This document shows, in pieces, positions 2,963-39,481 of a stretch of 39,850 bases of DNA. The stretch is taken from NCBI GenBank assembly GCA_027490955.1, contig JAIXXB010000036.1, forward strand, positions 1 through 39,850. Reading direction: 5' to 3'. Positions within the stretch are counted from its first letter, which is position 1, and every line of letters starts with the position of its first letter. Source of the stretch: Rhodobacter sp. GTDB taxonomy: Bacteria > Pseudomonadota > Alphaproteobacteria > Rhodobacterales > Rhodobacteraceae. Under the pieces are notes generated by a model, which saw only the letters and a list, made by a program, of their open reading frames with translations, was not told the DNA's origin and searched no databases. A program made the translations under genes and the position numbers.

Positions 2963-3112
2963 GTTCGGGCGCGTGCAGACCTGCGCGCGCCCGTTTGTCT
3001 GCGCCTCTTTTTCTGCGCCCGATTCCCTGTGCGCGATTTCCTGTGCTCGCAGGATATTCGGTTCAAGATCCGCGCAAACCATCGACCCATTTGCCCCTGA
3101 AAGTGATATGCC

Positions 3113-6100: not shown

Positions 6101-7066
6101 ATCGCCATTCGCGCCGCAGGTGCGCTTGCCGCCTATGGGGGCGAGGGGAACGATACGCTCTTTGCCAATGCGGCGAATGATCTGCTCTATGGCGATGGCG
6201 GCGATGACCATCTTCAGGCTTTTGGGGGGAACGATACCCTATATGGTGGGGACGGGGCCGACAGACTTACACCGGGCGCGGGCGATAATTTCATCTATGC
6301 GGGCGCGGGGAATGATAGTGTTTCGGGCGATTCGACGGGCGGCGATCTGATCTATCTGGGCCTTGGCGATGACAGCCTATTTTGGGGTGATGGCGCCGAT
6401 ACCATTTATGGCGAAGAGGGCAATGATACCATTCAATCTGGAGGCGGCGTCGATATTGTCTATGGCGGCGCGGGCAATGACAGCCTGACCATCGGAACGG
6501 GCCAAGACACGCTATATGGCGGCGCGGGCAATGACGTTCTATCGGGTGGGTCACAAGAGACCATGGCCGACCAGATGTTTGGCGAAGCGAATGACGATGT
6601 TTTGAACGGGCGGCTGGGCAATGATACGCTCTATGGCGGCGATGGGGCAGATCGGCTGGAAGGCGGCGCGCATGATGACGTTCTTTACGGCGGCAATCAG
6701 GATGATGTGCTGTATGGCGGAACGCAGAATGATATGCTGATCGGGGATGGCGGCAACGATATCATTTATGCCGGATCGCAGGCCAGCAACGACGCTGATA
6801 CCCTTACGGGCGGCGCAGGCAGCGACCAATTTGTGTTCTTCAATTATGGCGGCAACGATGTGGTGACAGATTTCACCAGTGGCCAAGATGTGATCGTCAT
6901 AAGGTCAAACGACGCGAATAGCCTTGCCAGTTTCCTTGCGCAATTAACCGATTTGGGCGCGGATATGCAGTTTGTTTCCATCACCACGGGAATGACGATT
7001 ATCTTCCAAGGCGTATCTGATGCCAGCGTCTTCCAAGCGGGGGATTTCGTCTTTCTGACGACCTAG
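3113..7066 (+). CDS. Very large RTX calcium-binding protein, putative type I secretion substrate (RTX paralogue 2)
   Basis: A 1317-residue protein of dense RTX nonapeptides, 150 bp downstream of its paralogue and on the same strand. Order of parts: short basic N-terminus (MSRRTKARVTGTAAAESL) without a signal peptide; RTX block to about residue 315; a non-RTX insert (about 316-385) ending in a DDTIRGNSLNN motif also seen near the N-terminus of paralogue 1; a long RTX block; an embedded module at about 805-890 (ADYFYIDGRQP, DFDAATDILEIDS) like that of paralogue 1; more RTX; and a C-terminal region (SDQFVFFNYGGNDVVTDF, ending DFVFLTT) typical of type I secretion substrates. A 165-bp internal duplication lies at 4421-4734. 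Export would need an ABC transporter, membrane fusion protein and TolC-type porin, none of which are in this window. No catalytic domain is visible. The weak ribosome site makes the exact start less certain. Confidence 0.87.
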   Translation: MSRRTKARVTGTAAAESLAGTTAADTISALGGNDTIVGGLGGDTIYGGTGNDLIAAYLAGDSALNDTLDGANWLSGDAGDDQLAGAGRNDVLIGGIGNDTIAGGDGADVLHGDLEADSATGGASTDTASGLDLLSGGLGNDRIYGGAKNDTLAGDEGADMLYGGRDDDALDGGAGNDRVFGGHGNDRLSDSDGDDLLDGGDGSDLIYNAAGNDTVFGGAGADEIDAFATGAGEDRLYGGAGDDTLEGGGGNDLIYGGAGHDYGHGGSGNDTLYGDVGNDLLIAGAASDARSAIFGGDGNDTLYLGLGSGRVLGGDDTDSLVISNVTLAGQSVFGQSITLDLANITTTQAVSANLSLRLLDAVENATGGSADDTIRGNSLNNLLRGEGGQDQLTGEAGSDTLYGENGNDSLLGGAGNDLLYGGDGTDRAEGGAGADTIYGGAGLDLIYGGDGDDRLFAGADGGTLLDGGAGNDLLTSDSGADQIYGGLGNDTIYGGAGLDVIYGGDGDDRVFAGASGGVRLDGGAGNDLLSSDSGADVIYGGAGLDNVLAGAGNDSVDAGDGADTVLGGAGADTLLGGLGNDTLRGEAGLDLVYGGSESDWLFGGDDADILYGENGADVLYGEAGIDELNGGDGGDLIYGGDGRDTLLGDAGDDTLFGDAGLGELYGGSGNDLVYGGSEGDIISGDAGNDTLRGDAGNDQIFGGFDADLVYGGGDQDRIYGGDGNDSLFGEAGHDVLDGENNDDLIVGDLGNDTLYGGNDGDDTLRGGADNDAIYGGAGNDLIEGGDGADTISSGYGSDRIYGGAGADYFYIDGRQPVGNDTIFDFDAATDILEIDSTTITSMTLLQAAMTGSSIALTTLDSLTLSGITFANLNPARVIFTNSLVLMTGTNNSEVLTGSAIQDNIDALEGDDTLYGGANNDLLYGGGGNDALYAGDGNDVLDDGAGNDLLYGGDGADSLDARTGVDTLYGGLGNDFMRGAVSEGASDVLYGDGGDDYIAIRAAGALAAYGGEGNDTLFANAANDLLYGDGGDDHLQAFGGNDTLYGGDGADRLTPGAGDNFIYAGAGNDSVSGDSTGGDLIYLGLGDDSLFWGDGADTIYGEEGNDTIQSGGGVDIVYGGAGNDSLTIGTGQDTLYGGAGNDVLSGGSQETMADQMFGEANDDVLNGRLGNDTLYGGDGADRLEGGAHDDVLYGGNQDDVLYGGTQNDMLIGDGGNDIIYAGSQASNDADTLTGGAGSDQFVFFNYGGNDVVTDFTSGQDVIVIRSNDANSLASFLAQLTDLGADMQFVSITTGMTIIFQGVSDASVFQAGDFVFLTT
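4421..4734 (+). repeat. 165-bp tandem duplication inside RTX paralogue 2
   Basis: Two near-identical copies begin at 4421 and 4586 (period 165 bp, 55 residues). Each encodes the order IYGGAGLD, IYGGDGDDR, FAGA, LDGGAGNDLL, SDSGAD. Differences are scattered, mostly silent or conservative, so the duplication is not brand new. It is a larger unit than the 9-residue RTX repeat and shows how this gene grows. Confidence 0.8.
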
Positions 7067-7155: not shown

Positions 7156-7812
7156 CTAGATCAGCGCGATGATCTTTTCCGCCTCGGCGCGCGGATCGGC
7201 CAGTTTGCTGCGATCTTCGCCGGGGTAAAACCGCGCGCGGGTGGCGGTGGGCATGGGGGCGGGGGTGGTGATGATCACGCGCGGGCCTGTTTTGGCGGTT
7301 TCCGCCGCCCAAGACTGCGCCAGCGCGATTTGCGCGGCCTTACTGGCCCCATAGGCGGCAAAAAACTTGCTTCCGCCGCGCGGATCATCGGTGAACAGGG
7401 CCGTGCCCGCCCCTTCGCGCAGCAAAGGCTCGACCATGGGAATTAGGTTGCCCGTGGCGCGAATATTGGTGGCGATGGATTTATCCCAATCTTTGCCGTC
7501 CAGCGATCCTGCAGGGGCCAGCGGGGCCACATGCACCGCCGTATGCGCCCAAAGCTGCAACGCGCCCCAGCGTTGGTGGATGTTCAGGCACAGATGCTGC
7601 ATCGCGCCTGTGTCGGTGATATCCATCGGGGCCAGCGTTAGCGCGCCAGCGCCGGGGCTTTTATGACCCTTCACGCGGTCGTCCAATTCCTCGAGCGCAC
7701 CTGCGGTGCGCGCCACGGCCACCACATGCCAGCCGCGCAGGGCCAGCCCCTCGGCCAAAGCAGCGCCAAGGCCGCGCGATGCGCCTGTGATCAATGCAAT
7801 ACGCTGGGTCAT
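7156..7812 (-). CDS. Short-chain dehydrogenase/reductase (SDR) family protein
   Basis: This 218-residue protein has a Rossmann-fold start with the cofactor motif TGASRGLG at residues 9-16 and the SDR YxxxK pair in AAYGASKAA (Tyr154, Lys158). An Asn at 116 (ATNIRA) fits the fourth catalytic residue. The usual catalytic Ser before the Tyr is not obvious: that stretch reads ALFTDDPRGGSKFF, so activity may be altered or Thr may substitute. The NNAG motif is also degenerate (WAHTAV). The substrate cannot be told from sequence; an NAD(P)-dependent oxidoreductase is expected. It is read in the same direction as purF but is separated from it by two other genes, and it converges on the RTX gene with a hairpin between. 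Confidence 0.85.
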   Translation of the reverse strand: MTQRIALITGASRGLGAALAEGLALRGWHVVAVARTAGALEELDDRVKGHKSPGAGALTLAPMDITDTGAMQHLCLNIHQRWGALQLWAHTAVHVAPLAPAGSLDGKDWDKSIATNIRATGNLIPMVEPLLREGAGTALFTDDPRGGSKFFAAYGASKAAQIALAQSWAAETAKTGPRVIITTPAPMPTATRARFYPGEDRSKLADPRAEAEKIIALI

Positions 7813-7913
7813 CGGATATCCTTCATCGGGCGGTTTGGCGCAGAGGTGCCTCCGGCGGGGATATTTTAGCCAAAGTGAAAGCGCAAGGGGTGCGCTGGGC
7901 GGCGCGGCGGGGG

Positions 7914-8270
7914 TTAAGCTGCGGCCAATTCGCGCTGGCGTTGGGCGATGATGGCGGCAATCAGCGCGCGGGGGGGCAGGTTTTCGGGGGTAAACATGAG
8001 GCCTGATTTGCTGGTTTTGAAGGGTTTGCAGTTGATTTTGTCGATCACGCTGCCCGAATGGGGGTAAAGCCCGATATGTTTGGCAAAGGCGGCATAGCCG
8101 ATGACCATTTTGCCGCCCCGTTGCGGTTGGCGCAGGCCCGGCATGGCGTAGGACATCACTTCGATATGGTCGGGCAAAATCGCCTGCAGCGTGGCGCGCA
8201 ACTGCATCAAAGCTGCGGCAAAGGCGGGCTTTTGCGCCGCAATATAGGCGTCAACCTCGGCGCAGAGCAA
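7914..8270 (-). CDS. DUF1801 domain protein (YdhG-like)
   Basis: A protein of about 118 residues matching the DUF1801 pattern: an N-terminal helix VDAYIAAQKPAF, then LPDHIEVMSYAMPGLR, GKMVIGYAAFAKHIGLYPHSG and a C-terminal LPPRALIAAIIAQR helix. The biochemical role of the family is not established. I prefer the TTG start at 8270 because AAAGGTG lies just upstream and the domain begins there. A longer reading from an ATG at 8360 would add 30 unlike residues and overlap the divergent SRPBCC gene. The two genes are divergent, so the gap 8271-8349 probably carries both promoters. Confidence 0.72.
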   Translation of the reverse strand: MLCAEVDAYIAAQKPAFAAALMQLRATLQAILPDHIEVMSYAMPGLRQPQRGGKMVIGYAAFAKHIGLYPHSGSVIDKINCKPFKTSKSGLMFTPENLPPRALIAAIIAQRQRELAAA

Positions 8271-8349
8271 TGTTTCACCTTTCTTAGGATTGCCGCGAAA
8301 CGGCCATAATTTTTTGGCACTGCCTGCGCAGATGGTAAAGGAGCCTTGG

Positions 8350-9003
8350 ATGATGCGCAAATTTTCCTTTCAAAAAGCGGCGAAAAAGCACCTTGGTGAT
8401 GGCGGCGCGCAAGATGTCTATGCTGTTGAATTCACCTGCCAGACGCAAAAAAGCCTAGACGAGGTTTGGGCGGCTTTGGTTAAGCCTGACAAGATTGCCC
8501 AGTGGATGGGGCCTGTATCGGGCAAGCTGGCCAAGGGCGGTGCGTTTCAATTGGGCGATCGGGCCGAAGGGCGCATCACGCAATGCGAGCCAAAGCGCCG
8601 CTTGGCCTTTGATCTGATGCGCGGCCCATCGCGCCAAGGGGTTGAGATTACCTTTGGCGAAGATGGTAAGGGCAAATCCAAACAGCGCGTGATCGCGGTG
8701 AAAATCACCGCCCATGTGCAAGATTTGCCCGCAGGCACGTGGGACAGGTTGGGGCCTGCCGCCTTGGGCATGGGGTGGGAATTGCTGGCCCAAGCCTTGC
8801 TGGACTATCTGGCAGGCGGCGCATCTGCACCCCCGCGCAAAGGCGGCACCACGGCCTTTGCCGCCAGTGCCGAAGGGCGCGCCTTTTGCAGCGCGGCATT
8901 TGAAGGATGGCGCGCGGCGGCCCTTGCGGGCGGCGCAGGCAGCGCCATTATGGCAGGGCCAGCGCCATCGGTGCTGGAGGTCTATACAGGGCTGCACCCG
9001 TAA
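8350..9003 (+). CDS. SRPBCC (AHSA1-like) domain protein
   Basis: A 217-residue protein. The N-terminal part, EVWAALVKPDKIAQWMGPVSG with GGAFQLGDRAEGRI and RRLAFDL, is typical of AHSA1/START-like (SRPBCC) hydrophobic-ligand-binding domains. The rest (GTWDRLGPAALGMGWE and a Gly/Ala-rich tail) resembles the C-terminal extension common in alphaproteobacterial members. Ligand and function are unknown. The start at 8350 is chosen because AAGGAG at 8337-8342 is seven bases upstream; an upstream in-frame ATG at 8290 lies inside the opposing gene. The stop is only 10 bp from the stop of purF, so the two genes converge with almost no spacer. Confidence 0.78.
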   Translation: MMRKFSFQKAAKKHLGDGGAQDVYAVEFTCQTQKSLDEVWAALVKPDKIAQWMGPVSGKLAKGGAFQLGDRAEGRITQCEPKRRLAFDLMRGPSRQGVEITFGEDGKGKSKQRVIAVKITAHVQDLPAGTWDRLGPAALGMGWELLAQALLDYLAGGASAPPRKGGTTAFAASAEGRAFCSAAFEGWRAAALAGGAGSAIMAGPAPSVLEVYTGLHP

Positions 9004-9013
9004 GGAGCCGCGC

Positions 9014-10477
9014 CTATTCGGCTGCTTTCATTTCAAAGCCTTCGGCGATTTTATCTGAAGGGGCCACGGGGTATTGGCCCGAAAAGCAGGCATCGCAATA
9101 TTGCGGGCTTTGCGCATCGCGCCCGCCCGCTTCGCCCGCCGCGCGGTAAAGCCCATCCAGCGAGATGAATTTCAGGCTATTGACCCCAATCCAATCGCGC
9201 ATTTCATCCTCGCTCATCGAGGCGGCCAGCAATTTGCTGCGCTCGGGCGTGTCAACGCCGTAAAAGCAGGGCCATGCCGTGGGCGGCGAGGCGATGCGAA
9301 AATGCACCTCTGCTGCGCCTGCCTCTAGGATCATATCCTTGATCTTGCGGCTGGTGGTGCCGCGCACCACAGAATCATCCACCAAAATCACCCGCTTGCC
9401 CTTGATCAGGGCGCGGTTGACGTTCAGCTTTAGCCGCACACCCATGTTGCGGATTTGCTCGGTCGGTTCAATAAAGGTGCGGCCCATATATTGGTTGCGG
9501 ATGATCCCCATCGCATAGGGGATACCCGATTGCTGGCTATATCCAATCGCCGCAGGCGTGCCAGAATCGGGCACGGGGCAGACCAAATCGGCGTCCACGG
9601 GGGCCTCTTTGGCCAGTTCCACACCAATTTGGCGGCGAGTCTCGTACACCGAACGGCCCCCCAGAATACTATCGGGGCGGCTGAAATACACATGTTCAAA
9701 GATGCAAAACCGCGATTTGGCAGGGGCAAAGGGGCGCGTGCTGGCCACTTTGCCATCTTCGATCACCACCATTTCACCCGGCTCGATTTCGCGCACAAAT
9801 TCTGCACCGATAATGTCCAGCCCGCAGGTTTCCGATGACAGCGCCCATGCGCTATCGCCAATGCGGCCCAGCACCAGCGGGCGCACGCCCAAAGGATCGC
9901 GCACGCCGATCAGCTTGGTGCGCGTCATCGCCACCACCGAAAACGCACCTTCCACGCGGCGCAGCGCGTCTTTGATGCGTTCGGAAATATTCGATTGGAT
10001 CGACCGCGCCATCAGATGAATGATACATTCACTGTCGGATGAGGATTGAAATATCGAACCCCGTTCAATCAATTCGCGCCGCAGGGCTGCGGCATTGGTG
10101 AGGTTGCCATTATGGGCAATCGCCGCCCCGCCCATGGAAAACTCGCCAAAAAAGGGCTGCACATCGCGAATGGCCGTGGCCCCTTTTGACCCTGCCGTGG
10201 AATAGCGCACATGGCCAATTGCCAATTGGCCCGGCAGTGTATCCATCACATCGGGTTTGGTGAAGTTATCGCGCACATAGCCAAAGCGGCGGGCCGAATT
10301 GAACCCCGTCTGGGGCGCATAGCTGACGATGCCGCCCGCCTCTTGCCCGCGATGTTGCAGCGCATGCAGGCCAAGGGCGACAAAGTTTGAGGCATCTTGA
10401 ATTCCGATCACGCCGAAAATGCCGCATTCTTCCTTTAGCTTATCATCGTCAAAAGGATGAGAGAGGAAAGGGCGCAT
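9014..10477 (-). CDS. purF: Amidophosphoribosyltransferase
   Basis: First step of purine biosynthesis: PRPP plus glutamine gives 5-phosphoribosylamine, glutamate and pyrophosphate. The 487-residue protein has an N-terminal Ntn glutaminase domain with nucleophile Cys18 in KEECGIFGV (a short propeptide is presumably removed), and a C-terminal phosphoribosyltransferase domain with the PRPP loop VILVDDSVVRGTTS (about 363-376). Four cysteines at about 258 (FCIFEHVYF), 404 (WPCFYG), 461 and 464 (YCDACFSG) match the Fe-S cluster ligands of the Bacillus-type enzyme, so an oxygen-sensitive cluster is likely. The start at 10477 (MRPFLSHPFDDD) fits the family better than the ATG at 10507. It lies 55 bp downstream of cvpA, the classical pairing. 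Confidence 0.97.
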   Translation of the reverse strand: MRPFLSHPFDDDKLKEECGIFGVIGIQDASNFVALGLHALQHRGQEAGGIVSYAPQTGFNSARRFGYVRDNFTKPDVMDTLPGQLAIGHVRYSTAGSKGATAIRDVQPFFGEFSMGGAAIAHNGNLTNAAALRRELIERGSIFQSSSDSECIIHLMARSIQSNISERIKDALRRVEGAFSVVAMTRTKLIGVRDPLGVRPLVLGRIGDSAWALSSETCGLDIIGAEFVREIEPGEMVVIEDGKVASTRPFAPAKSRFCIFEHVYFSRPDSILGGRSVYETRRQIGVELAKEAPVDADLVCPVPDSGTPAAIGYSQQSGIPYAMGIIRNQYMGRTFIEPTEQIRNMGVRLKLNVNRALIKGKRVILVDDSVVRGTTSRKIKDMILEAGAAEVHFRIASPPTAWPCFYGVDTPERSKLLAASMSEDEMRDWIGVNSLKFISLDGLYRAAGEAGGRDAQSPQYCDACFSGQYPVAPSDKIAEGFEMKAAE

Positions 10478-29084: not shown

Positions 29085-29585
29085 GCGCTGCATTTAGCCC
29101 GCGATGGCGCAAAAGGGAAGGGCGCAGGCCCAAGGCGCCGCATTGCCAAAGGGCCAAGGGCACGGCGGCACCCACCCTTGCGCAGGGCTCGCTTCGCGCG
29201 CGCTGGGGCATTGCAAAATGGCGAAGGTCAAGTTCAGCAGCAGCCGATGGGTGTGATCCCGTCCAGTGGCGCGCAGGCTGAGGCGCAAATGCAGTATGGA
29301 ACAGATTATTGCGGCCATGTTATTTGGTGCAATTTGCACGTGCTTGGCCCGATAATTTGCACGCGCGGCGCAATTCAAAGACTTGGGGCAATATGGATTA
29401 CAGGCTAAACGTGCGTTTTAAAAATAAGCGCGCCCATAAATTGCGCGAGGTTTTCTATTTTGAAAAGGTTTCGACCCTGTTCACCCATAGCGTTAAACAA
29501 TTTCCGCAAAAACCTATGCAGAACGGGCTTGAAAGATACCATTAACGCTGGTGCTAAACTTCGCTGCCAACACCTGCGGCAAAAA
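29085..29585. other. Gene-free stretch upstream of trmFO
   Basis: About 500 bp without a convincing gene. A 50-codon reading at 29393-29545 (plus) lacks a ribosome site and family resemblance. The stretch contains the palindrome described at 29327. GC content falls towards the right, and the last part is the terminator region of the small exported protein gene. Confidence 0.5.
29327..29363. promoter_or_regulatory. Palindrome with a repeated AATTTGCACG element
   Basis: GTGCAA-T-TTGCAC (29327-29339) is a perfect palindrome with a one-base centre. Its right part, AATTTGCACG, recurs 23 bp on (29354-29363), about two helical turns away. This looks like a pair of operator sites for an unknown regulator in the gap upstream of trmFO; which gene it serves is unclear. 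Confidence 0.35.
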
Positions 29586-29614
29586 GTAAGGGTGGCAAAG
29601 CCTGCCACCCTTAC
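29586..29614 (-). terminator. Rho-independent terminator of the small exported protein gene
   Basis: A perfect 12-bp stem GTAAGGGTGGCA / TGCCACCCTTAC with a 5-base loop. On the minus strand it is followed directly by TTTTT (29581-29585 read in reverse). It lies 15 bp after the stop of the 60-residue gene. Confidence 0.9.
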
Positions 29615-29628
29615 AATCGCTAGAAAAA

Positions 29629-29811
29629 TCAAGCGTTGCTTGCAGCCAAAGCCAAAGCAACCAGCAAAAGCAGTGGTACAACGTAGCCGCCAGCCGAGGA
29701 CGAGGTGTCTGCGACAACTGCTGCTGCTTCGGTGACAGGCTCTGCTGCGCCGCCTGCAAATGCCGAGGTAGCAGCCATCGAGAAAGCAGCGGCCAATGCG
29801 ATTTTTTTCAT
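29629..29811 (-). CDS. Small exported membrane-anchored protein, 60 residues
   Basis: A signal peptide MKKIALAAAFSMAATSAFA with likely cleavage before GGAAEPV, a short acidic linker (EPVTEAAAVVADTSSS), then a hydrophobic C-terminal helix (YVVPLLLLVALALAASNA). Proteins of this design are common in Rhodobacteraceae; no function is known to me. GGAG lies seven bases before the ATG and a strong terminator follows, so it is a real, separately transcribed gene. It is the last core gene before the island. Confidence 0.8.
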   Translation of the reverse strand: MKKIALAAAFSMAATSAFAGGAAEPVTEAAAVVADTSSSAGGYVVPLLLLVALALAASNA

Positions 29812-30090
29812 GTTTATCTCCAGAATGAGTATGTCAATTTAAAAGATGACGAAATAACGCTTTCGCCAGGCTCTTAAGGCCTAGATCAATTGTGACGAAA
29901 TCCAAACGAAAAAATGGCCGCTTTTGGCAGGCCTATTCTTTGGGGATGTGAATATTATTCCAACGTATAGAATAAAATAACCTTTGCCCTAAATCTGAAT
30001 AACGCATGTAGGCAAAACGGCGCGACAGCATCTGGCGATTGAACGCGCCATCACAGCCGTGGCTTGCTGCCGTTTAGGGATTTGGAAAAT

Positions 30091-30136
30091 TGGCTCCGAC
30101 GGTAGGGATCGAACCTACGACCAATTGATTAACAGT
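30091..30136 (-). other. Attachment site: 3' fragment of tRNA-Asn(GTT)
   Basis: Read on the minus strand this is the 3' part of a tRNA-Asn: anticodon loop CTGTTAA, then the variable region, the T-arm GGTTCGATCCC, the acceptor strand CGTCGGA, G and an encoded CCA. Similarity stops at the anticodon stem: the bases that should form its 5' half (30137 on) do not pair, and no D-arm follows. This is what remains after a phage or island integrates into a tRNA gene; the intact copy should lie at the island's other end. Confidence 0.85.
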
Positions 30137-30215: not shown

Positions 30216-31421
30216 ATGACAAACCTTCCATCCGCAATCAATCTTTACAGGGGCTTATCGATCTACAAGGTCGCTGGGTCGATGAAATGGTACGTTCGCA
30301 TTTGGGATCGTCGGACCAAGAAGTATTTGGTCAAATCGACGGGTGAGGATAGTTCGATCAAAGCGAGGGCTGTGGCTCAGGAACTTGCGCTGTCGATGCT
30401 TAGATCAGAGCCAGTGATCGAAAGCCGTTTCACTTTCCGACATTTCGCCTTGAAACTGCTGCATAAATCTCGGCTGCAAGGCAAAGCTGGTGATCGTAGC
30501 GATGGCTACGTCAAATCGATCCACTGGGCTGTCCAGAACGAGGACTGGGGGCTGCTGAGGCATTTTGGTGAAATGGATGTTCGAACGCTGAAGACAAACA
30601 CTTACCAAGACTACATCACCGATCTTGGCAAAAAGCGTCCTGACCTTGCATCTTCAAGCAAAAACACCTTGATGGCTGCTTTTCGGAACGTTTTGAAGAT
30701 TGCCCGTGATGAGGGGGTGATCGACAACATTCCCGCAACCCCAAGGGTGAAGATCAAGGACAATCCCCGCCCATTTTTCCGATTTGCCCCGCTTGTTGCA
30801 AAGGACGACGACGCTTACCAAAAGCTGCTCAAGGCTGTGAAGCAGATGGCAGGGCAGGGGGTTCAGGTGCGTGGTCTGATGGTCGATGATGAGTTTTACG
30901 ACCTTTTGCTTTTCTTGACCCATTCCTTTGTTCGTCCGATTATGTCCGAGCTATATGCGATCAAACATGCAGACGTTGCGGTTGCGAATGACCCAAGACG
31001 GCTGATTGTTACCGTTCGTGATGGAAAGACTGGGTTTAGGGCAGCAAACACCATGGAGGCGGCTGTTTCTGTTTATGAACGAATTCGGCAGCGTCATCCT
31101 ACGGCCAAGCCAGATGACTACATTTTCTATCCACACTGGGCGAACCGCACCACCGCATCCAGCATGGTTCAGCGGCTGTTCAATGAGGTGCTGCGGAAAT
31201 CTGAGCTGGAAATCGATGCCGTGACTGGCAAGACGCATACGCTCTATTCCTTGCGTCATACGGCGATTTGTATGAGGATCATCAACAGTCATGGCAAGGT
31301 GAACATCTTCAACCTAGCCAAGAACGCTGGCACTTCAGTCGACCAGATCGAACGGTTTTACGCAAAATACCTGCCATTGTCGAAAGAGATGGCGAAGAAC
31401 CTGCAAAGTTTCGGGGAGTGA
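30216..31421 (+). CDS. Tyrosine recombinase / integrase of the island
   Basis: A 401-residue site-specific recombinase. An arm-binding/SAM-like N-terminal half is followed by the catalytic domain with Arg240 (THSFVRPIMSEL), a beta-hairpin Lys271 (RDGKTGFR), the Y-x-x-R-H box (LYSLRHTA, Arg347, His348) and nucleophile Tyr382 (QIERFYAKYLP). The first His of the usual HxxR box is Tyr here, a known variant. I chose the ATG at 30216; an upstream ATG at 30141 would start almost inside the tRNA fragment, and neither has a strong ribosome site. Position 80 bp from the att fragment and direction away from it are typical of tRNA-targeting integrases. Confidence 0.92.
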   Translation: MTNLPSAINLYRGLSIYKVAGSMKWYVRIWDRRTKKYLVKSTGEDSSIKARAVAQELALSMLRSEPVIESRFTFRHFALKLLHKSRLQGKAGDRSDGYVKSIHWAVQNEDWGLLRHFGEMDVRTLKTNTYQDYITDLGKKRPDLASSSKNTLMAAFRNVLKIARDEGVIDNIPATPRVKIKDNPRPFFRFAPLVAKDDDAYQKLLKAVKQMAGQGVQVRGLMVDDEFYDLLLFLTHSFVRPIMSELYAIKHADVAVANDPRRLIVTVRDGKTGFRAANTMEAAVSVYERIRQRHPTAKPDDYIFYPHWANRTTASSMVQRLFNEVLRKSELEIDAVTGKTHTLYSLRHTAICMRIINSHGKVNIFNLAKNAGTSVDQIERFYAKYLPLSKEMAKNLQSFGE

Positions 31422-32248: not shown

Positions 32249-32623
32249 ATGGCTACCAAACCAAATTTCGTATTCGTTGACGTTCCAGAACGCCCAAAGG
32301 CAAATTCGATTGCTGTCAAACGGCAGCGGCTGATCGAAGGGCTGACAAAACAGGCAGCCGAGGTCAAACGGTTCGAGCAAGGGCATTGGACACCCCGCAA
32401 TTGGTTCTGGGCGGATGACAGCGGCAAGTTCTATCTGGAAGTGCGTTATGCCAAAAAGCCGTTGGTGATCAGCGAGGGCAAGTCAGCGATCCTTTGCCAA
32501 TCGCTGGACGACGTAGCCGCCAAAATCGAACAACTAAAGGCAATCGTCAAAGTTGGGGGCTTAGACCCTCAGATTGAGGCAGCGTCTGGGGCTATTCGCT
32601 CTCGGTTCAAGAAGTCCAAGTGA
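32249..32623 (+). CDS. Hypothetical protein, possibly DUF6641 family
   Basis: A 124-residue soluble basic protein. Central block: EVKRFEQGHWTPRNWFWADD, GKFYLEVRYAKKPL, then LDDVAAKIEQLKAIV and a basic C-terminus IRSRFKKSK. From memory this resembles the DUF6641 family, often found beside the GIY-YIG type seen just upstream, but this needs a profile search. GGGAGAG is five bases before the ATG, within a hairpin. It is probably co-transcribed with the GIY-YIG gene (83-bp gap). Its stop codon abuts the stop of the convergent serine recombinase with no spacer. Confidence 0.65.
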   Translation: MATKPNFVFVDVPERPKANSIAVKRQRLIEGLTKQAAEVKRFEQGHWTPRNWFWADDSGKFYLEVRYAKKPLVISEGKSAILCQSLDDVAAKIEQLKAIVKVGGLDPQIEAASGAIRSRFKKSK

Positions 32624-33262
32624 TCAGATCAACCCTGCTGCTGTCGCAAAGCTAAGCACTGTGGCAGGATACCATTTTGTTGCCTTGGGCGTTTTGACAT
32701 TCGCATCGTTCAGCCGACGAGCCGTTTCAGATGCTGACGGTGATTGATCCCAAATCTGTTTGAACGCTGTCAGATTGGTTTCCACAAAATCATACTTTTG
32801 CTGTTTGCGAACCTTGGCAAGTGCCTTGGCATTAACCCCCAGCACCGTTCCCCGCTTCTTAGCCTCAGCAAGGGCTGCTCGGGTCCGTTCAGATATCTGA
32901 CGACGTTCTTCCTCGGCAAAACAAGCCAGAAGGTGCAGGAAGAATGTGCTGACATTGGGATATTCACAAACAACCAATTCAATCCCTTGGTCGATGATCC
33001 CAGAGATGAACGACACCTTGCGAGAGAACCGATCCAGCTTTGGGATCAACAGCTTTGCCTTGGTCTTCTTGACGAGGCTGATTGCCTTCCACAGCTCTAG
33101 CCGTTTGTCATTCTTGCCAGACTCGATTTCCGTGAATTCGGCTGTGATCGTATCGGTCGGCTGGATGAAACGGTTCACCATCGCCCGCTGGGCATCAAGA
33201 CCTAATCCTGATCGACCCTGACGCTCAGTCGATACCCGATAATAGACCACATATTCGACCAT
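32624..33262 (-). CDS. Serine recombinase (resolvase/invertase type)
   Basis: A 212-residue small serine recombinase. Catalytic Ser11 lies in YYRVSTERQG, followed by GLGLDAQ, PKLDRFSRKV (catalytic Arg region), and AEEERRQISERTRAAL of the long E-helix. The C-terminal 60 residues are a compact helix-turn-helix (SASETARRLNDANVKTP). That size fits resolvases or invertases rather than the large serine integrases. GGGGGC lies before the ATG. No crossover-site pair was identified nearby. It may resolve multimers of a replicating form, or have arrived with a separate insertion. Confidence 0.9.
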   Translation of the reverse strand: MVEYVVYYRVSTERQGRSGLGLDAQRAMVNRFIQPTDTITAEFTEIESGKNDKRLELWKAISLVKKTKAKLLIPKLDRFSRKVSFISGIIDQGIELVVCEYPNVSTFFLHLLACFAEEERRQISERTRAALAEAKKRGTVLGVNAKALAKVRKQQKYDFVETNLTAFKQIWDQSPSASETARRLNDANVKTPKATKWYPATVLSFATAAGLI

Positions 33263-33296: not shown

Positions 33297-33806
33297 TCAG
33301 GTACGATCCCTCAAAATCGGGAATGGTGGCAACAGCAAATGGACAGGTCCCAAGCGGTTCCGTGCCTCAATATAGTGCTTCCGTTTGATGTCATCTGGAT
33401 ACACTTTGTGATAATCAATTATTATGTTTTCATAAGCGCAGTCCAAACGATTACTGCGCCTCAAAAAGTTAAGCCCGTAGGTTTTGGGCGGCTTATCAAG
33501 CAGGTCCAATATCACAGCCATAGCGCCATCTGTTTTTATCTTTCGTCGAGTGTATGTGGCAAATCTACGTCTTCCCACGTCCCCGCTTAAGACCTTCTCG
33601 TAGGCTTCAACATATCTCATAAAATCATTATGGAAATCAGACTTGCCCTCTTGTTCGGTCAACAAAATTTCGGTTATTCGACGTCGACCCGCTTGAGCCG
33701 CATAGTCATTTTTCCAGCGCTCAGCGTTCCTGATGAAATTCTTAACACGACTGGTAGAATGCATCTTGGCAACATGAGCATTGATTTCAGCGTCACTAAA
33801 GCGCAC
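33297..33806 (-). CDS. Hypothetical protein, 169 residues
   Basis: Not recognised. A charged, mostly helical protein rich in Arg/Lys (FIRNAERWKNDY, RRRITEILLTEQEG, TYTRRKIKTDGAM) with no signal peptide or membrane segment. The GTG start is supported by GGGAGAGG close upstream. It lies 34 bp before the serine recombinase gene on the same strand, so the two may be co-transcribed. A DNA-binding role would fit the charge but is a guess. Confidence 0.6.
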   Translation of the reverse strand: MRFSDAEINAHVAKMHSTSRVKNFIRNAERWKNDYAAQAGRRRITEILLTEQEGKSDFHNDFMRYVEAYEKVLSGDVGRRRFATYTRRKIKTDGAMAVILDLLDKPPKTYGLNFLRRSNRLDCAYENIIIDYHKVYPDDIKRKHYIEARNRLGPVHLLLPPFPILRDRT

Positions 33807-33879: not shown

Positions 33880-34125
33880 CTACCCGATCTTTGACCTCAC
33901 GCTAGTCATCAACTGTTGGTCATTCGTGCCAACAGCGATCCCAAGCCCGTTAAGGTAAGCTAACAGCTTGTTTTGTTGACCTATCAAGACGTTCTGTTTG
34001 GCAACATCGACTTCACGATCAATCTGGATTGACAGGTTTCTAACCTTTAGCACCAAACCTGCTGTCACAGCCTTCGTCCACAACGGATAGCTGCCCTCGT
34101 TCAAGAACTGTTTGAACGTCTTCAT
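33880..34125 (-). CDS. Hypothetical small protein, third gene of the RHH-led operon
   Basis: An 81-residue product starting MKTFKQFLNEGSYPLW, a pattern reminiscent of short phage head-associated peptides, then a central hydrophobic/helical region (VLKVRNLSIQIDREVDVAKQ). No family is recognised. Its ATG overlaps the previous stop (ATGA), so translation is coupled to the gene before it. This coupling is the main evidence that it is real. Confidence 0.6.
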   Translation of the reverse strand: MKTFKQFLNEGSYPLWTKAVTAGLVLKVRNLSIQIDREVDVAKQNVLIGQQNKLLAYLNGLGIAVGTNDQQLMTSVRSKIG

Positions 34126-34304
34126 GATCGAATCACAATCACCGATACAGCACCTTGACGGCTGTAACGGTCCAACGCTTTGTTGACGGCTTTAACATCA
34201 TCAACCGACAGAATCTCGAACACTTCAAGCTTTGGGTTCTGTAACGCTATGATCGACCTTGCTAACGAATGCTTGTTTGTTGGTGTTATAACACTTGAAA
34301 TCAT
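34122..34304 (-). CDS. Hypothetical small protein, second gene of the RHH-led operon
   Basis: A 60-residue protein with alternating strands and helices (VFEILSVDDVKAVNKALDRY, AVSVIVIRS); no family recognised. It overlaps both neighbours by four bases (ATGA at each end), a strong sign of a translationally coupled operon. Confidence 0.6.
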   Translation of the reverse strand: MISSVITPTNKHSLARSIIALQNPKLEVFEILSVDDVKAVNKALDRYSRQGAVSVIVIRS

Positions 34305-34585
34305 AATTTAAACCTCTCATCCCATTCATATTCGTCATCAAACAGTATGCTAACAGGCTGTTCGAATTCTAAGGGAATGTTAGCGGCTTTAATGGGCTTT
34401 GTTATTGGATTAATTAACTGTTCGATACGTTTGCTGTCTTCAAGGTTCTTAAGCTCTTGTCGGCAATACAGGTCTAACAGTCTGTTAACAATGGATGTTC
34501 TGGAAATGTGTTTGTATTTGGCTATCAGGTCTAGGTTATGTTTAAGGTGTGTGGGAATGTTAAAGTTCATTAACTGGTAGTCCAT
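34301..34585 (-). CDS. Ribbon-helix-helix (CopG-like) protein
   Basis: A 94-residue protein. Residues 1-45 fit a ribbon-helix-helix DNA-binding domain: a beta strand YQLMNFNIP, helix THLKHNLDLIAKY, turn, helix SRTSIVNRLLDLYCRQEL. The C-terminal half is acidic (FDDEYEWDERF) with no known domain. TAGGAG lies seven bases before the ATG. It leads a three-gene coupled operon and faces the upstream AT-rich repeats, which may be its operator. By analogy with plasmid CopG it could control the nearby Rep gene; this is an inference from position. Confidence 0.72.
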   Translation of the reverse strand: MDYQLMNFNIPTHLKHNLDLIAKYKHISRTSIVNRLLDLYCRQELKNLEDSKRIEQLINPITKPIKAANIPLEFEQPVSILFDDEYEWDERFKL

Positions 34586-34688
34586 GTGATGCTCCTAATG
34601 TTAGCTTCGCAAATGGTGGAGAGGTTTTGGAGGCTGTAAAGATGTTGCGAATGTTATTTGGTAGATGTTTTTGGGGTTATAAGCGGTT

Positions 34689-34743
34689 GGTGTTAATTGA
34701 TGTGGATTATTGAAAGGTATTAAGGATTGTAGGAAGGTGTTAA
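34689..34743 (+). repeat. Three GGTRTTAA direct repeats upstream of the RHH operon
   Basis: GGTGTTAA at 34689, GGTATTAA at 34716 and GGTGTTAA at 34736 lie in a strongly AT-rich stretch between the RHH gene and the Rep gene. Spacing is 27 and 20 bp. They could be operators for the RHH protein or iteron-like sites. Confidence 0.45.
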
Positions 34744-34781
34744 GTATTATTGGCAGCATTTAGATAATACTTTAAATTAAA

Positions 34782-34802
34782 GGTCCAGAGACGCTCTGGG
34801 CC
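34782..34802 (-). terminator. Rho-independent terminator of the Rep gene
   Basis: The stem GGTCCAGAG / CTCTGGGCC has a 3-base loop (one G-T wobble). Read on the minus strand it is followed by TTTAATTTAAAG. It lies 47 bp past the stop of the HUH Rep gene. Confidence 0.7.
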
Positions 34803-34849
34803 AATGTGGGGCAGATTGAATGATGATTGGGCTTACTTGGAGTCTATAC

Positions 34850-35326
34850 TCAACGAAGTTCGAAGCACGTGGAGTTCGACCAATCAATACAATTTGAATA
34901 TTCTGTTTTGGTTCTTGTTTTCAGGCAATAATCAATCCAGCCAAGCTCACGCAGCTCGGTTGTGGGGAATTCGAAATGGCTTTGCTGATAGCCGTAACGG
35001 GTGGAGGTCCAGCAGTTTTGTGCCAGTAGGATGAAGTCAGTGGCAGGGATGTGCTGAGGACGTTCGATCACACAATGGATGTGGTGACGATGGGTCTGGT
35101 CCTGTTCACGGACGACGAACATCGACAGCTTGATGCCGTAACGTTTGAATTTTGATCCAAAACATTTGGCGTTCAGTTTGTTGGCAAAGTGGCGGAAGTT
35201 TTGCTGGGACAGTGTATCCGTGATCCATTGCCCATCGACCACTTGGCGTTGGGTAAGCGTGATGTTGACAGGGTTTGGGACCCTGTGTTCGAGGTAGTAG
35301 GCCTTGAAATCTGTGGGGGAGAGCAT
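34850..35326 (-). CDS. HUH-family rolling-circle replication initiator (Rep)
   Basis: A 158-residue protein with the three ordered motifs of rolling-circle Rep proteins: motif 1 NITLTQR (21-27), motif 2 HHIHCVIE with the metal-binding pair His82 and His84 (HIH), and motif 3 DYCLKTRTK with nucleophile Tyr133 and Lys136 (YxxK). A single catalytic Tyr is seen. It nicks one strand at an origin and stays bound to the 5' end; no helicase domain follows, so a host helicase would be needed. It resembles small Reps of phage- or plasmid-related elements more than Y1 transposases. The ATG has no strong ribosome site. Codon use is AT-rich, unlike the core genes. Confidence 0.78.
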   Translation of the reverse strand: MLSPTDFKAYYLEHRVPNPVNITLTQRQVVDGQWITDTLSQQNFRHFANKLNAKCFGSKFKRYGIKLSMFVVREQDQTHRHHIHCVIERPQHIPATDFILLAQNCWTSTRYGYQQSHFEFPTTELRELGWIDYCLKTRTKTEYSNCIDWSNSTCFELR

Positions 35327-35734
35327 GGGTTAAGGTATTGTTGTTAAAGGGACATACCTATTTATACGACCTTTACCTTATCTTTAGCGGTCAAGTGAAA
35401 ATAAATGTAATAAATAGCAAATGTGAGCAGACTATGCCAAAAATGACTTTTATTGTCTATTGAAACAAAATACTTCTGGAGTAATCTGGTGATCAATGTT
35501 CTTTCCTTATACGTCCGTGCACAACAATTTTGCACCGTAGCAACCTTTCGAGGTTTACAGAGATCCGTTGCGCTCCCGCAAGATGCAACCATTGGGATTA
35601 CTATACGAATGATAAAAAGCTGTTGACTAGGCGTAAATATTAAAATTACAGATAGACGTGGGTATACTCAAGAAAACATGCCGCAAAGTACTTGGAAGGG
35701 TATGTTCGGAGGCGTAAGCGAGTGAGAATTATAC
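35327..35734. other. AT-rich gap between Rep and a divergent exported-protein gene
   Basis: About 400 bp with no gene I can support. It should contain the Rep promoter and possibly the replication origin. A small inverted repeat TTGCG-CTCC-CGCAA lies at about 35569-35582, with GCAACC repeated on both sides; the nick site is not identified. GGAGG lies about 21 bp before the next gene's ATG. Confidence 0.4.
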
Positions 35735-36775
35735 ATGAAAAATTTGCAACTTATAGGCTGCATCGCATTCCTGGGTGCGACTACAGTTTCACATTCTGAA
35801 GAAATTTCAGGGTCGGCATTCTATTCTGGTGCATGGTCTGGGGCAGCATATACAGAAGACGATACTGGAAAATGGTCTCATTGTGCTATCCTTGCAAGTT
35901 ACGAACATAATGGATTTGATCTCATTATTTCACTAGATAACCAATATGACTTGGGCATCGGATTGTCTAACCCAACAGATCCAGTATTTTCAGGTCACCA
36001 GGAACTTCAAATTGTAGCAAAAGTTGATAATTTCGATCCAATGTTTGCGACCGCTCAGGTCATCGACGACTTCTTCGCAGGAGTTTGGTTTGATGACTTG
36101 GATGCGGCAATGTTGCAAATCGCAAAAGGGAACCTTCTTACACTTTCATCAAAAATTGGTACTGAGACTTTTGGCTTAGAGGGTACGTACAAAGCACTTA
36201 ACGAAACATATGCTTGTGCAAGAGCCTATCAAAATTTTGCAACAGTGCCGGAAGTTGAGCAACAACCCAGCGATTTGAATGCATGGAATCCAACTGCTGA
36301 AGAAACTGCGGCAATGTATCAGATATCATCCAAGATTATATCTGACCTGAGACTTGAAAACTTCATGTTCCTCACTGGAGAGGATAACTTCATTTCTGGC
36401 GGAAAAGGTGTGATGTGGGAAGCCAGAGAGGGGCAAATTCTAGGCGGTGTATTCGTCGGGCGTGAGCGTGGAGCTTTGGACCTTCAACAAATAATGTCAG
36501 AAGACATTGCTACATTATCAAAGCTTTGCGCCGATGGAGACCTAGCTTTGATCAATTCGAAGTATCTAGTGGACGGAGTTTCGACAGTCCAAGTTAAAGG
36601 TGTGTGCGATAGCTTAGCAGAACCGTTCAACCTTTATCTTACAAAGCAAAACATAAACGAAGTTTTGGTAGAAACTCTAATTTTTGATTATGAAAAGTCA
36701 TCAGCAGAGGGAAGCTACGACCCTGATATGGGAAAGAACGCCGCAATTATTTCGGTAAACTACTTGAACAAATAG
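35735..36775 (+). CDS. Hypothetical exported protein, 346 residues
   Basis: Not recognised. The N-terminus MKNLQLIGCIAFLGATTVSH is a signal peptide, with cleavage likely just before EEISG. The mature part is acidic, probably two domains joined by a linker (about 165-185, EVEQQPSDLNAWNPTAEETA). Cysteines occur at Cys49 (SHCAIL), in the linker region (YACARAY), and in CADGD and GVCDS, enough for disulfides in the periplasm. Divergent from Rep. Codon use and low GC mark it as acquired. Periplasmic or secreted location is the only firm inference. Confidence 0.7.
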   Translation: MKNLQLIGCIAFLGATTVSHSEEISGSAFYSGAWSGAAYTEDDTGKWSHCAILASYEHNGFDLIISLDNQYDLGIGLSNPTDPVFSGHQELQIVAKVDNFDPMFATAQVIDDFFAGVWFDDLDAAMLQIAKGNLLTLSSKIGTETFGLEGTYKALNETYACARAYQNFATVPEVEQQPSDLNAWNPTAEETAAMYQISSKIISDLRLENFMFLTGEDNFISGGKGVMWEAREGQILGGVFVGRERGALDLQQIMSEDIATLSKLCADGDLALINSKYLVDGVSTVQVKGVCDSLAEPFNLYLTKQNINEVLVETLIFDYEKSSAEGSYDPDMGKNAAIISVNYLNK

Positions 36776-38044: not shown

Positions 38045-39481
38045 TCAAAAGATCGCAATTAATACAGCTAGAAAAATTCCGCCACCTAGCAGCCAATTTG
38101 AAACAGATGACAGCCGCTTGATCTGAAGACGCAATGACAAAAACTCATCCGAAAGAGCATTTAGTTGCTTCTCTTCACTTTCTTGGATCAAATCTCGAAG
38201 CGAAATTAAATTCAACACTTTCTCGCCTTGCGCAATCCACTCAGATTCGTCATCCCTTTTCATAAACTCAGGATTCTTTTTTTTGATTTCCTTTAGCATT
38301 CCTGAGTACATGCTGATGTAAATAAGGTCCCCAGGATTTTTTCTGTCAATCTCTAGGCAAAGTTCGTGCAATCTCTCTCTAAATTTCGAGTTGCGCTGAA
38401 TACTTGGGTTCATCAAGAGATGCCGAACAGAGATCTCATTATCTTTTTGAAAGACATAGTCAATGTCTTCGAGAGACCAGTTGCGCAAATATCTGTAGGA
38501 ACACGCTCTGTAAGCAATATCTGGATTCTGAAAATACTCAAGATTAGATCTGTTCTGACCGAAATAATCTGTCATTATATTTCTATAAATTGAATATCTT
38601 ACACTCTCAAAAGCATTTAGAGAAACAGCTGCCGTTTTCGTCTTTTGCTCGTCACCGTCAATTATCCATCGCTTAGCCACATCAAAACTATCAAAATGGC
38701 GTCGCTTATCGACTGTCTTCTCAAGAAGTTCCGTCAATGCCCAAGCAATTGGCATCGTAACGGGCAAACTTTTAGCCAAATCCCATATCGTATGAAATAA
38801 TTCGTCATAATAGTACTCAGTTAATCCGCTCATGAGGTAATCATTTTCATCAAAGGGCTCAGATACTCTCCTGTTTCGAGAAAGACCAATCAATACTCGC
38901 AGCTTGCGGTCTTCCGTCAGCGACGCCCATGCGTTGTTCTCAGCTTTAAGAAACTCAGTCAAGAAATGCGCATCAATAGTTTCGTTGGAGAAAAGAACTT
39001 CGACTTCTTGGTCGCACAGGTTCACAACCCAATTATTAATTCTCTCCTTTTCCTCGTCACTTAAAAAATCCCAGCTCGCAAACTCAGATTTGGTGAAAAA
39101 TGCTACTGGTATCCTCTGGTTCGGGTAAGACTGATATAGAGTTTTGTTAAAAAGACAAGCTAATTTAAGTGGTAAGTTCTCTGACTCCTGAGCTTTGGCA
39201 AACAGCTTTTCCAATGTTTTTCCATGCTTGCAATGCTGAGCAAGCGTTAAATCTAAAAAGCTATCATTTCGGTCAAGTAAAGATGCTTCTGTTTCGAAGT
39301 CAATAAAGTTATCATTCTGGTAATGTAAGATTACACCTGTTCTGAAATCAACGTAGTCGTTTAACTCTGCGTTTTTAGGAGCGTCGACGAAAAATTCTCG
39401 GATGAATTCGTTTGATCCGCTCAGAAGCTCCGCCTCAACTACCAAGGCTTTTGGCTTGCGTTTTGAATTATCCGACATCAT
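38045..39481 (-). CDS. Hypothetical tail-anchored helical protein, 478 residues
   Basis: A large acidic, nearly all-helical protein with no recognised domain. The last 20 residues form one transmembrane helix (NWLLGGGIFLAVLIAIF), preceded by a charged coiled-coil-like stretch (ESEEKQLNALSDEFLSLR). The rest would face the cytoplasm. AAAGGTG precedes the start; ATG codons at 39481 and 39478 are adjacent. The AT-rich composition fits recent gain. A membrane-anchored sensor or defence effector is possible only by analogy with island cargo; it could equally be a phage-related protein. Confidence 0.65.
   Translation of the reverse strand: MMSDNSKRKPKALVVEAELLSGSNEFIREFFVDAPKNAELNDYVDFRTGVILHYQNDNFIDFETEASLLDRNDSFLDLTLAQHCKHGKTLEKLFAKAQESENLPLKLACLFNKTLYQSYPNQRIPVAFFTKSEFASWDFLSDEEKERINNWVVNLCDQEVEVLFSNETIDAHFLTEFLKAENNAWASLTEDRKLRVLIGLSRNRRVSEPFDENDYLMSGLTEYYYDELFHTIWDLAKSLPVTMPIAWALTELLEKTVDKRRHFDSFDVAKRWIIDGDEQKTKTAAVSLNAFESVRYSIYRNIMTDYFGQNRSNLEYFQNPDIAYRACSYRYLRNWSLEDIDYVFQKDNEISVRHLLMNPSIQRNSKFRERLHELCLEIDRKNPGDLIYISMYSGMLKEIKKKNPEFMKRDDESEWIAQGEKVLNLISLRDLIQESEEKQLNALSDEFLSLRLQIKRLSSVSNWLLGGGIFLAVLIAIF

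Follow-up and report, generated by a model that had tools for sequence, protein, structure and literature searches.

A likely satellite of T4-type phages in Rhodobacter: a tRNA-integrated island with a rolling-circle Rep gene behind a T4-type late promoter motif

Background

The PLE satellites of phage ICP1 are integrated elements. PMC10803314 describes them as satellites of a virulent phage, and the same paper describes the PICMI of Vibrionaceae, small marine integrated elements with an integrase, a replication gene and defence cargo, inserted next to fis and carrying AlpA and a primase, whose helper is a virulent phage and whose DNA is packaged as concatemers. Tycheposons (PMC10872708) are tRNA-bordered cargo elements of marine bacteria with a tyrosine recombinase, and the Charybdis elements (PMC12324425) are marine, about 4.6 kb long and without recognised plasmid or virus hallmark proteins. 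Here we describe an island in Rhodobacter sp. (assembly GCA_027490955.1), on contig JAIXXB010000036.1 (C41), the entire 39,850 bp of which is the window analysed, in a genome of 2.96 Mb and 42 contigs. The island encodes a HUH rolling-circle initiator (Rep), and the evidence below makes it likely that it is a phage satellite that makes this Rep only once a T4-type phage begins late transcription.

The late promoter of T4 and KVP40 is TATAAATA, which gp55 recognises in T4 together with gp45 and gp33, and that of the cyanophage S-PM2 is NATAAATA, as given in sections of PMC1524935 and PMC2984593. The N-terminal peptides of T4 internal proteins are removed by gp21, which cuts after glutamate (parts of PMC3012670, PMC9958956 and PMC5694885). 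Among open-licence papers, no title or abstract on a satellite with a T4-type late promoter was found, and none combined "TATAAATA", "satellite", "late promoter" and "phage", which is not proof of novelty.

Results

A T4-type late promoter motif upstream of rep

Upstream regions were compared across 27 Rep loci from Proteobacteria, Opitutae and Nitrospiraceae records and a marine contig. This set left out duplicates (L001-L004, L022, L029-L036, L044, L047), incomplete loci (L024, which carries TATAAATA, L027, L037), the second Rep ORF (open reading frame) of L021, distant Reps (L038-L043, L045) and later finds (L063, a copy of L062, and L078-L089). The motif TATAAATA was found in the 100 nt preceding rep at 16 of the 27 loci, versus 3 of 845 other ORFs, and NATAAATA in 21 of 27 versus 7 of 845, the controls being mechanical ORFs of at least 100 aa from the same loci and not all genes. 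In 300 Markov shuffles no 8-mer was found in more than 5 loci, and TATAAATA averaged 0.46. The 39,850 bases of the window hold one copy of TATAAATA on either strand, and in 10 of the 16 loci the copy upstream of rep is the sole one on either strand of the available 5.6-40 kb. The motif begins 28-56 nt before the assumed rep start in 13 of the 16, 18 nt before it in L014 and L015 and 23 nt before it in L018. Of seven further loci from the later class and phylum scans, five were independent and could be tested (L078 looks identical to L011, and L083 is cut off); in these five, TATAAATA was present in two and CATAAATA or GATAAATA in two. For the distant Reps, with an upstream region available for two and for L085, TATAAATA was present in 0 of 3 and GATAAATA in 1 of 3.

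The same motif was placed similarly in T4, where TATAAATA starts 35-36 nt before genes 18, 20, 22, 24 and 53; together with gene 9 these lie in a range of 32-36 nt, and gene 19 has copies at 22 and 81 nt. The T4 stretch contains 17 copies versus 7.1 expected. In Melnitz, a marine T4-like phage, TATAAATA stands 39 nt before gp22 and 42 nt before gp23, and the first 49-kb stretch contains 14 copies versus 3.4 expected. At the level of sequence, TATAAATA or NATAAATA lies at the distance from the gene start expected of a T4-type late promoter, and the sequence strongly suggests that rep is controlled by such a promoter.

An alternative is that the island is an integrative mobilizable element (IME) or plasmid-like element that undergoes ordinary excision followed by rolling-circle replication, with TATAAATA acting as a host -10 box. 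The combination of integrase, attachment (att) site, Rep and ribbon-helix-helix (RHH) protein is typical of IMEs and integrated plasmids, and exact TATAAATA is missing at 11 of the 27 Reps and NATAAATA at 6. An ordinary -10 box would, however, resemble TATAAT and be accompanied by a -35 element, whereas TATAAT was found upstream of rep in 1 of 27 loci and TTGACA in none, and exact TATAAATA recurs in 16 loci, in records assigned to three phyla. No relaxase or conjugation family was found among the 10 window proteins scanned, and tblastn of the window Rep against 72,556 plasmid records returned no relative. We consider this alternative quite improbable.

A compact HUH Rep resembling the microvirus ORF2/G2P type

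A preliminary description of this DNA had proposed a compact HUH Rep on an integrated element, and the motifs NITLTQR, HHIHC and YCLK are all present in the rep product. Residues T25, E74, H82, H84, W106, Y133 and K136 are invariant in 21 aligned Reps, and the AlphaFold2 model is confident (mean pLDDT 90.7), so that the HUH motif, motif 1, the catalytic tyrosine and an HUH-like fold were all found, by sequence and model together. Against the PDB, none of 1172 matches to the model reached E<=0.001, ranks 1 and 2 were not HUH proteins, and a search by sequence profile gave nothing useful; the top 20 matches to the model included AAV Rep, parvovirus NS1, PCV2 Rep, RAYT and geminivirus Rep, with the ISHp608 transposase just below. 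Against the BFVD viral library there were 96 matches at E<=0.001, and among the 50 matches listed six are named, all of them replication proteins and two from microviruses, which upholds the rolling-circle assignment.

In Pfam, the window Rep scored 24.1 bits against REP_ORF2-G2P (PF23343), under the gathering cut-off of 27.8, while all 21 Rep family members examined matched at E<=0.01 (best 1.3e-08). These matches, with the microvirus Rep folds, are what would favour a decayed or cryptic provirus of an ssDNA phage of microvirus or inovirus type, in keeping with the earlier term "ssDNA-phage-like". The window Rep resembles the microvirus ORF2/VP4 and G2P Reps in its HUH fold and single tyrosine (BFVD probability 1.00); unlike them, it is 158 aa long and falls below the Pfam cut-off, and no capsid genes were seen beside it. 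Among the window ORFs scanned with Pfam and PHROGs there was no capsid, pilot or inovirus family, related elements measuring 4.7-8.2 kb between their perfect att repeats hold other genes instead, and tblastn of the window Rep against 50,697 phage records returned no match. A provirus is thus highly unlikely, and the earlier term is not supported, although the Rep itself resembles the microvirus ORF2/G2P type. Nor does the locus look like a Y1 transposase of the IS200/IS605 or RAYT kind, the other identity that had been considered: the model is HUH-like, the one end known is formed by the tRNA att repeat of a tyrosine integrase and not by a Y1 hairpin, rep is internal and its neighbouring genes co-occur with it, the hairpin examined being the one adjacent to rep.

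A candidate origin directly downstream of rep

A hairpin followed in fixed register by a 24-nt motif lies directly past rep. In 24 of 27 loci the hairpin exceeded shuffled sequences in stability at p<=0.05 (window p 0.003), and the 24-nt motif scored p<=0.01 in 23 of 27 when each locus was left out of its own model; this test replaces an earlier position weight matrix that had scored its own training sequences and was circular. The core TATTACC is exact in 3 of 27 loci (L005, L011, L062) and looser elsewhere; it presumably recalls the nick sites of CRESS-DNA viruses. We infer that the element is a candidate origin with a putative Rep nick site. The preliminary description had called the hairpin a Rep terminator, and a hairpin followed by CTTTAATT does resemble one, so that the element could be an intrinsic terminator with the true origin elsewhere. 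A terminator needs no conservation past its T-tract, whereas here conservation runs past the T-tract in fixed register under leave-one-out scoring, and the terminator-only account is unlikely. The earlier assignment stands as far as the hairpin goes, and the element may serve as both terminator and origin.

Small proteins with a T4 head-targeting-like start

The gene ORF4a encodes a protein that starts MKTFKQFLNEG in the window and, in relatives, for example MKSFRTFIAEG, MIRFKSFISEG or MKRFKTFIEEG. ORF4b, a different body near rep, starts MIGFKQF...LEEG (L020), MIGFKEF...LDER (L009) or MKNFTDF...LNES (L007); it follows the RHH gene in L009 and L020, whereas in L007 and L025 ORF4b and rep are transcribed divergently. 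In L019 the sole TATAAATA in 20 kb sits 73 nt upstream of ORF4b. The T4 internal proteins IPII and IPIII start MKTYQEFIAEA and IPI starts MKTFKEF, and Melnitz carries MQGFKTFLSEAK. A small gene with such an internal-head-protein-like start, with one or the other body, is found near rep in 14 of 31 loci, the 31 being the earlier set with L086-L089 added.

The T4 prohead protease gp21 prefers [LI]xE. This tripeptide was present within residues 6-19 of 11 of 12 ORF4 proteins versus 53 of 759 control ORFs; the 12 do not include the near-copies L063, L088 and L089, the 41-aa ORF of L080, or the relatives from L006 and L050, which begin within longer ORFs. A start pattern modelled on ORF4a matched 7 of 2553 ORFs, namely four ORF4a, two T4 internal proteins and one other, and since the pattern was devised after seeing ORF4a, only its rarity elsewhere and the T4 matches count. 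The strict pattern gave no ORF match in the stretches from S-ShM2 and phiM9 and in one of the two from Melnitz. The ORF4 model, built from four sequences, is helical and moderately confident (pLDDT 75.8), and Pfam, PHROGs and NCBIfam scans of ORF3 and ORF4 gave noise at most. By its N-terminus, ORF4 would be delivered in the head of a helper phage.

Integration into a tRNA gene

The element is integrated, as is evident from its att repeats, and has its own recombinase. The preliminary description of a tRNA-integrated island was borne out by 46 exact bases of tRNA-Asn in the window, next to a tyrosine integrase (phrog_1, 1.4e-19; under the Pfam cut-off) that is 76% and 60% identical to the integrases near Rep in L005 and L007. 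The intact tRNA-Asn(GTT) gene lies on contig C42 of the same genome and ends 818 bases from the contig end; ARAGORN found no whole tRNA inside the window, as expected since the att copy there is the distal one. Among 14 congener loci examined, the tRNA-Asn gene adjoins the same C42 neighbour gene in 12 of the 12 that have that gene. The contigs of L114 and L115 end at the tRNA; in nine of the other 10 loci, homology to C42 ends no more than 4 bases from the 3' end of the tRNA, and in L105 it continues for about 97 bases further. From the att copy and this break in homology, the element spans position 30091 to the end of C41 and resumes on C42, which gives it at least 9.7 + 0.8 kb with a gap between. 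No overlap was found between the ends of the two contigs, which leaves the central part of the element missing. The GC content of the element is 0.447 versus 0.60 in window positions 1-30090.

Exact 45-46-bp tRNA repeats were present in L007, L019, L020, genome G059 and the window, and the relatives with perfect repeats measure 4.7 kb (L007, tRNA-Thr), 8.2 kb (L019, tRNA-Asn) and 7.1 kb (L020, tRNA-Ala). In G059 the att core is present three times, and an intact tRNA-Asn stands at one end; the positions of the copies on contig C1 (1289335, 1325716 and 1378730) suggest two tandem islands of about 36 and 53 kb. On the other side of the window att, a search for an empty site from the flank with a trmFO-like gene found no tRNA at any of 13 congener loci, in flanks at most about 1.5 kb long, and this flank is therefore not syntenic. 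The segment from that gene to att (29093-30090) is, past its first 32-34 bases, absent beside the gene in the 13 loci, and therefore something else may be inserted there. Elsewhere, by eye, L062 10580-10729 resembles the 3' end of glmS and L011 carries a GlmS-like gene (7645-9525) upstream of Rep; glmS is perhaps a second insertion site.

Distribution, neighbouring genes and cargo

Counting its own genome, Rep matches were found in 4 of 101 near genomes, in 15 of 394 family genomes at E<=1e-4, with values under 1e-20 in 10 of the 15, and, at E<=1e-10, in 6 of 385 class and 3 of 398 phylum genomes. A scan of GTDB contigs gave 21 Rep loci, with record titles that include Sphingomonadales, Pseudidiomarina, SUP05, SAR92, Seongchinamella, Burkholderia, Opitutae and Nitrospiraceae, the assignments of metagenome-assembled genomes being the depositors' own. 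In viral contigs, a Rep pattern search (3 matches) and the queries A1 (35) and A6 (93) yielded no relative, and ORF4a scans yielded L062, L063, L088 and L089; L064-L068, from the same scans, were dropped since their match spans 18-24 residues only. Four IMG/VR contigs bear the module together with, by eye, large serine recombinases, and two of these contigs are 99.97% alike. L021, a 7.3-kb contig, has two Rep-family ORFs (272-742 and 2305-2934), and at L050 9703-10154 the G177 Rep is split across two overlapping frames and so looks frameshifted.

Near rep, the 31 loci have RHH in 19, ORF3 in 10, ORF4a in 9 and ORF4b in 5, a window-like integrase in 10 and a second small tyrosine recombinase in 13. 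The latter is conserved at 198-200 aa (L007 10864-11463, L019 11623-12222, L020 12896-13492, L086 5762-6364). The order Rep-RHH-ORF3-ORF4, which the preliminary description had suggested seeking in other genomes, recurs: in L081/L086, from a genome of another family, Rep is followed by a 134-aa ORF, RHH, an ORF of the size of ORF3, assigned by its position alone, and ORF4a. An integrase lies behind rep in that locus, and a tRNA-Arg gene stands about 7 kb further on.

The PADLOC defence library matched 10 of 20 cargo proteins scanned and gave a match in 6 of 9 elements, with type I restriction-modification genes in L005 (HsdM/HsdS) and L088 (HsdR/S/M, with PDC-S57), BrxL in L009 and DNA methyltransferases in L019, L020 and L062. 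The single proteins scanned from L089 and L086 had no defence match. In L062, L088 and L089, a cargo slot lies between ORF4a and the methyltransferase gene, with flanks about 88-95% identical and different inserts (341- and 411-aa genes; type I restriction-modification with PDC-S57; a 673-aa gene), so that cargo is swapped among the three IMG/VR contigs compared.

Other features of the window

The features of the island are collected in Table 1. The RHH gene had been described as standing 265 bp from rep under divergent control; the spacing is 264 bp, and the gene is not divergent, since rep, RHH, ORF3 and ORF4 share the minus strand. It does head two further coupled genes, as had been proposed, with 4-base overlaps between RHH and ORF3 and between ORF3 and ORF4. 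Its Arc/CopG PHROG matches are weak (E 0.001-0.08). The three GGTRTTAA repeats reported between rep and RHH are there, all within 34689-34743; the count itself is weak, with 7 of 100 shuffles having three or more somewhere, and the clustering alone is notable. The repeats may be the RHH operator, and the serine recombinase may act in monomer resolution. Far from the island, at 122-7066 on the plus strand, two long ORFs with glycine/aspartate-rich repeats look RTX-like by eye.

Table 1. Positions of the island's features in the window
Feature	Coordinates	Strand	Basis or remark
Distal attachment site	30091..30136	-	exact copy of tRNA-Asn positions 30-75
Tyrosine integrase	30216..31421	+	longest ORF from 30141; homologue starts near 30216
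Small accessory gene, phrog_31551 (unknown)	32249..32623	+	relatives near rep, 9/31 loci including window
Serine recombinase/resolvase	32624..33262	-	Pfam/PHROG scans; relatives in 3/31 loci including window
169-aa gene, possible cargo	33297..33806	-	no family; single noise-level PHROG match
ORF4a, 81-aa helical protein, T4-capsid-targeting-like MKTFKQFLNEG start, then prohead-protease-like site	33880..34125	-	
ORF3, conserved 60-aa gene, function unassigned	34122..34304	-	relatives in 10/31 loci
RHH-type regulator, Arc/CopG-like	34301..34585	-	weak PHROG matches; relatives in 19/31 loci
GGTRTTAA repeats, three	34689..34743	+	sole copies in window
Candidate double-strand origin	34759..34802	-	hairpin 34782-34802, then 24-nt CTTTAATTTAAAGTATTATCTAAA 34759-34782
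Rep, HUH rolling-circle initiator, one catalytic Tyr	34850..35326	-	158 aa; motifs, Pfam, model
TATAAATA, T4-type late promoter motif	35359..35366	-	40 nt upstream of rep start; sole window copy
346-aa gene, probable cargo	35735..36775	+	signal-peptide-like start (by eye); no family
478-aa gene, probable cargo	38045..39481	-	hydrophobic C-terminus (by eye); no family; noise-level PHROG matches

Discussion

The "satellite-like" character first proposed for this locus gains support from a T4-type late promoter motif, the most telling feature and one that lies outside the coordinates first given, and from a protein with a head-targeting-like N-terminus. With rep behind what appears to be the late on-switch of T4-type viruses, the island probably travels inside those viruses to new bacteria. 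We propose that the tyrosine integrase inserts the element in the 3' half of tRNA-Asn and that rep would be silent or low in the resident state. On infection by a T4-type myovirus, late transcription by gp55, gp33 and gp45 would fire the TATAAATA upstream of rep, and the minimal Rep would nick the element of hairpin and 24-nt motif that directly follows rep, leading to rolling-circle replication of the excised circle. The concatemers could be packaged by the headful motor of the helper, ORF4 would be carried in the helper head, and in the recipient cell the recombinases of the element could resolve the concatemers to monomers; RHH probably autoregulates its own operon. With T4-type headful packaging of rolling-circle concatemers, a satellite would need no packaging gene of its own, which fits the gene content of the element. 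No capsid, packaging or structural family was found among the window proteins scanned with Pfam and PHROGs, in an element with a sequence gap, and thus no full structural gene set of its own; other elements were scanned for structural genes in part.

A number of observations weigh against a satellite of T4-type phages. NATAAATA is absent within 100 nt upstream of rep in L006, L007, L012, L019, L021 and L026, the motif distances rest on assumed start codons, and some of the Reps compared are close relatives of one another, so the counts are not independent events. In the phages, the motif precedes 7 of the 20 T4 genes checked, gene 23 and the ip genes not among them, 4 of 11 Melnitz genes (gp18, gp22 and gp23 included) and 2 of 10 in S-ShM2 (7 copies versus 2.8 expected), and the second Melnitz stretch is not enriched (4 seen versus 4.4 expected). 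In phiM9, a T4 relative with an alphaproteobacterial host, there are 0 copies in 49 kb versus 0.1 expected, which means that not all phages of the T4 type could act as helper. Only 14 of the 31 loci have a detected ORF4a or ORF4b. By tblastn of phage records, ORF4a had no convincing homologue and ORF4b had weak matches (E>=0.3) in 33, judged to be chance and covering residues 21-95 in the rows shown; a shortened ORF4b query found no phage match, and a single-query search gave 25 matches with no relative among them. Of 8 loci with a nearby tRNA, 5 show no second att copy in the available stretch (L009, L010, L046, L048, L049), the four window cargo proteins scanned match no defence model, and no packaging, capsid or excisionase gene was named among the proteins scanned. 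We know of no helper phage for these hosts; of the 50,697 phage records, 2493 have a gp23-like match, and these are not all from T4-type phages. Taken with the evidence above, dependence on a T4-type helper and packaging by it are still what we infer.

More tentatively, the loci may together form a widespread family of T4-type-phage satellites, in Proteobacteria and in metagenome-derived Opitutae and Nitrospiraceae records, that place Rep behind the late promoter of the helper, copy themselves as heads fill and deliver a capsid-targeted protein with their DNA. If so, induction would follow a simple rule in which the helper sigma factor reads the island promoter with no relay regulator, and restriction systems, BrxL and similar genes would have a route between marine bacteria. 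Two bodies behind one type of start would mean that the satellite exchanges the proteins it delivers, in the way that T-even phages exchange internal proteins. The reading would also suggest that satellites can put their own proteins inside the helper head. The combination of TATAAATA, an HUH Rep, the hairpin with its 24-nt motif and a small MxxFxxF protein would then be a search signature for the family.

Comparison with known systems

The T4 proteins IPI-IPIII resemble ORF4 in their N-terminal M-K-x-F/Y-x-x-F, followed by IAE in IPII and IPIII, and in having diverse bodies behind one conserved start (parts of PMC3012670, PMC9958956 and PMC5694885); unlike them, ORF4 is encoded by a bacterial island, its bodies have no detected sequence relation to theirs and its delivery is predicted. 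The likeness to PLE would lie in being an integrated satellite of a virulent phage, and the difference is that TATAAATA is absent from the main text of PMC7567579, the comparison being with that text. Tycheposons share the tRNA borders, tyrosine recombinase, cargo and marine hosts, and the main text of PMC10872708 is without "rolling", "satellite" and "late promoter". PICMI is the nearest published system compared: both are small marine integrated elements with an integrase, a replication gene and defence cargo, and a virulent helper phage would be common to both. In the part of PMC10803314 compared, PICMI too has no capsid-remodelling genes, and its packaging as concatemers would be shared by the present element. 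No AlpA or primase family was found among the 10 window proteins, and the insertion is in tRNA-Asn; the present element differs from PICMI by its HUH Rep, its tRNA att site, its T4-type late promoter motif and its head-targeting-like protein.

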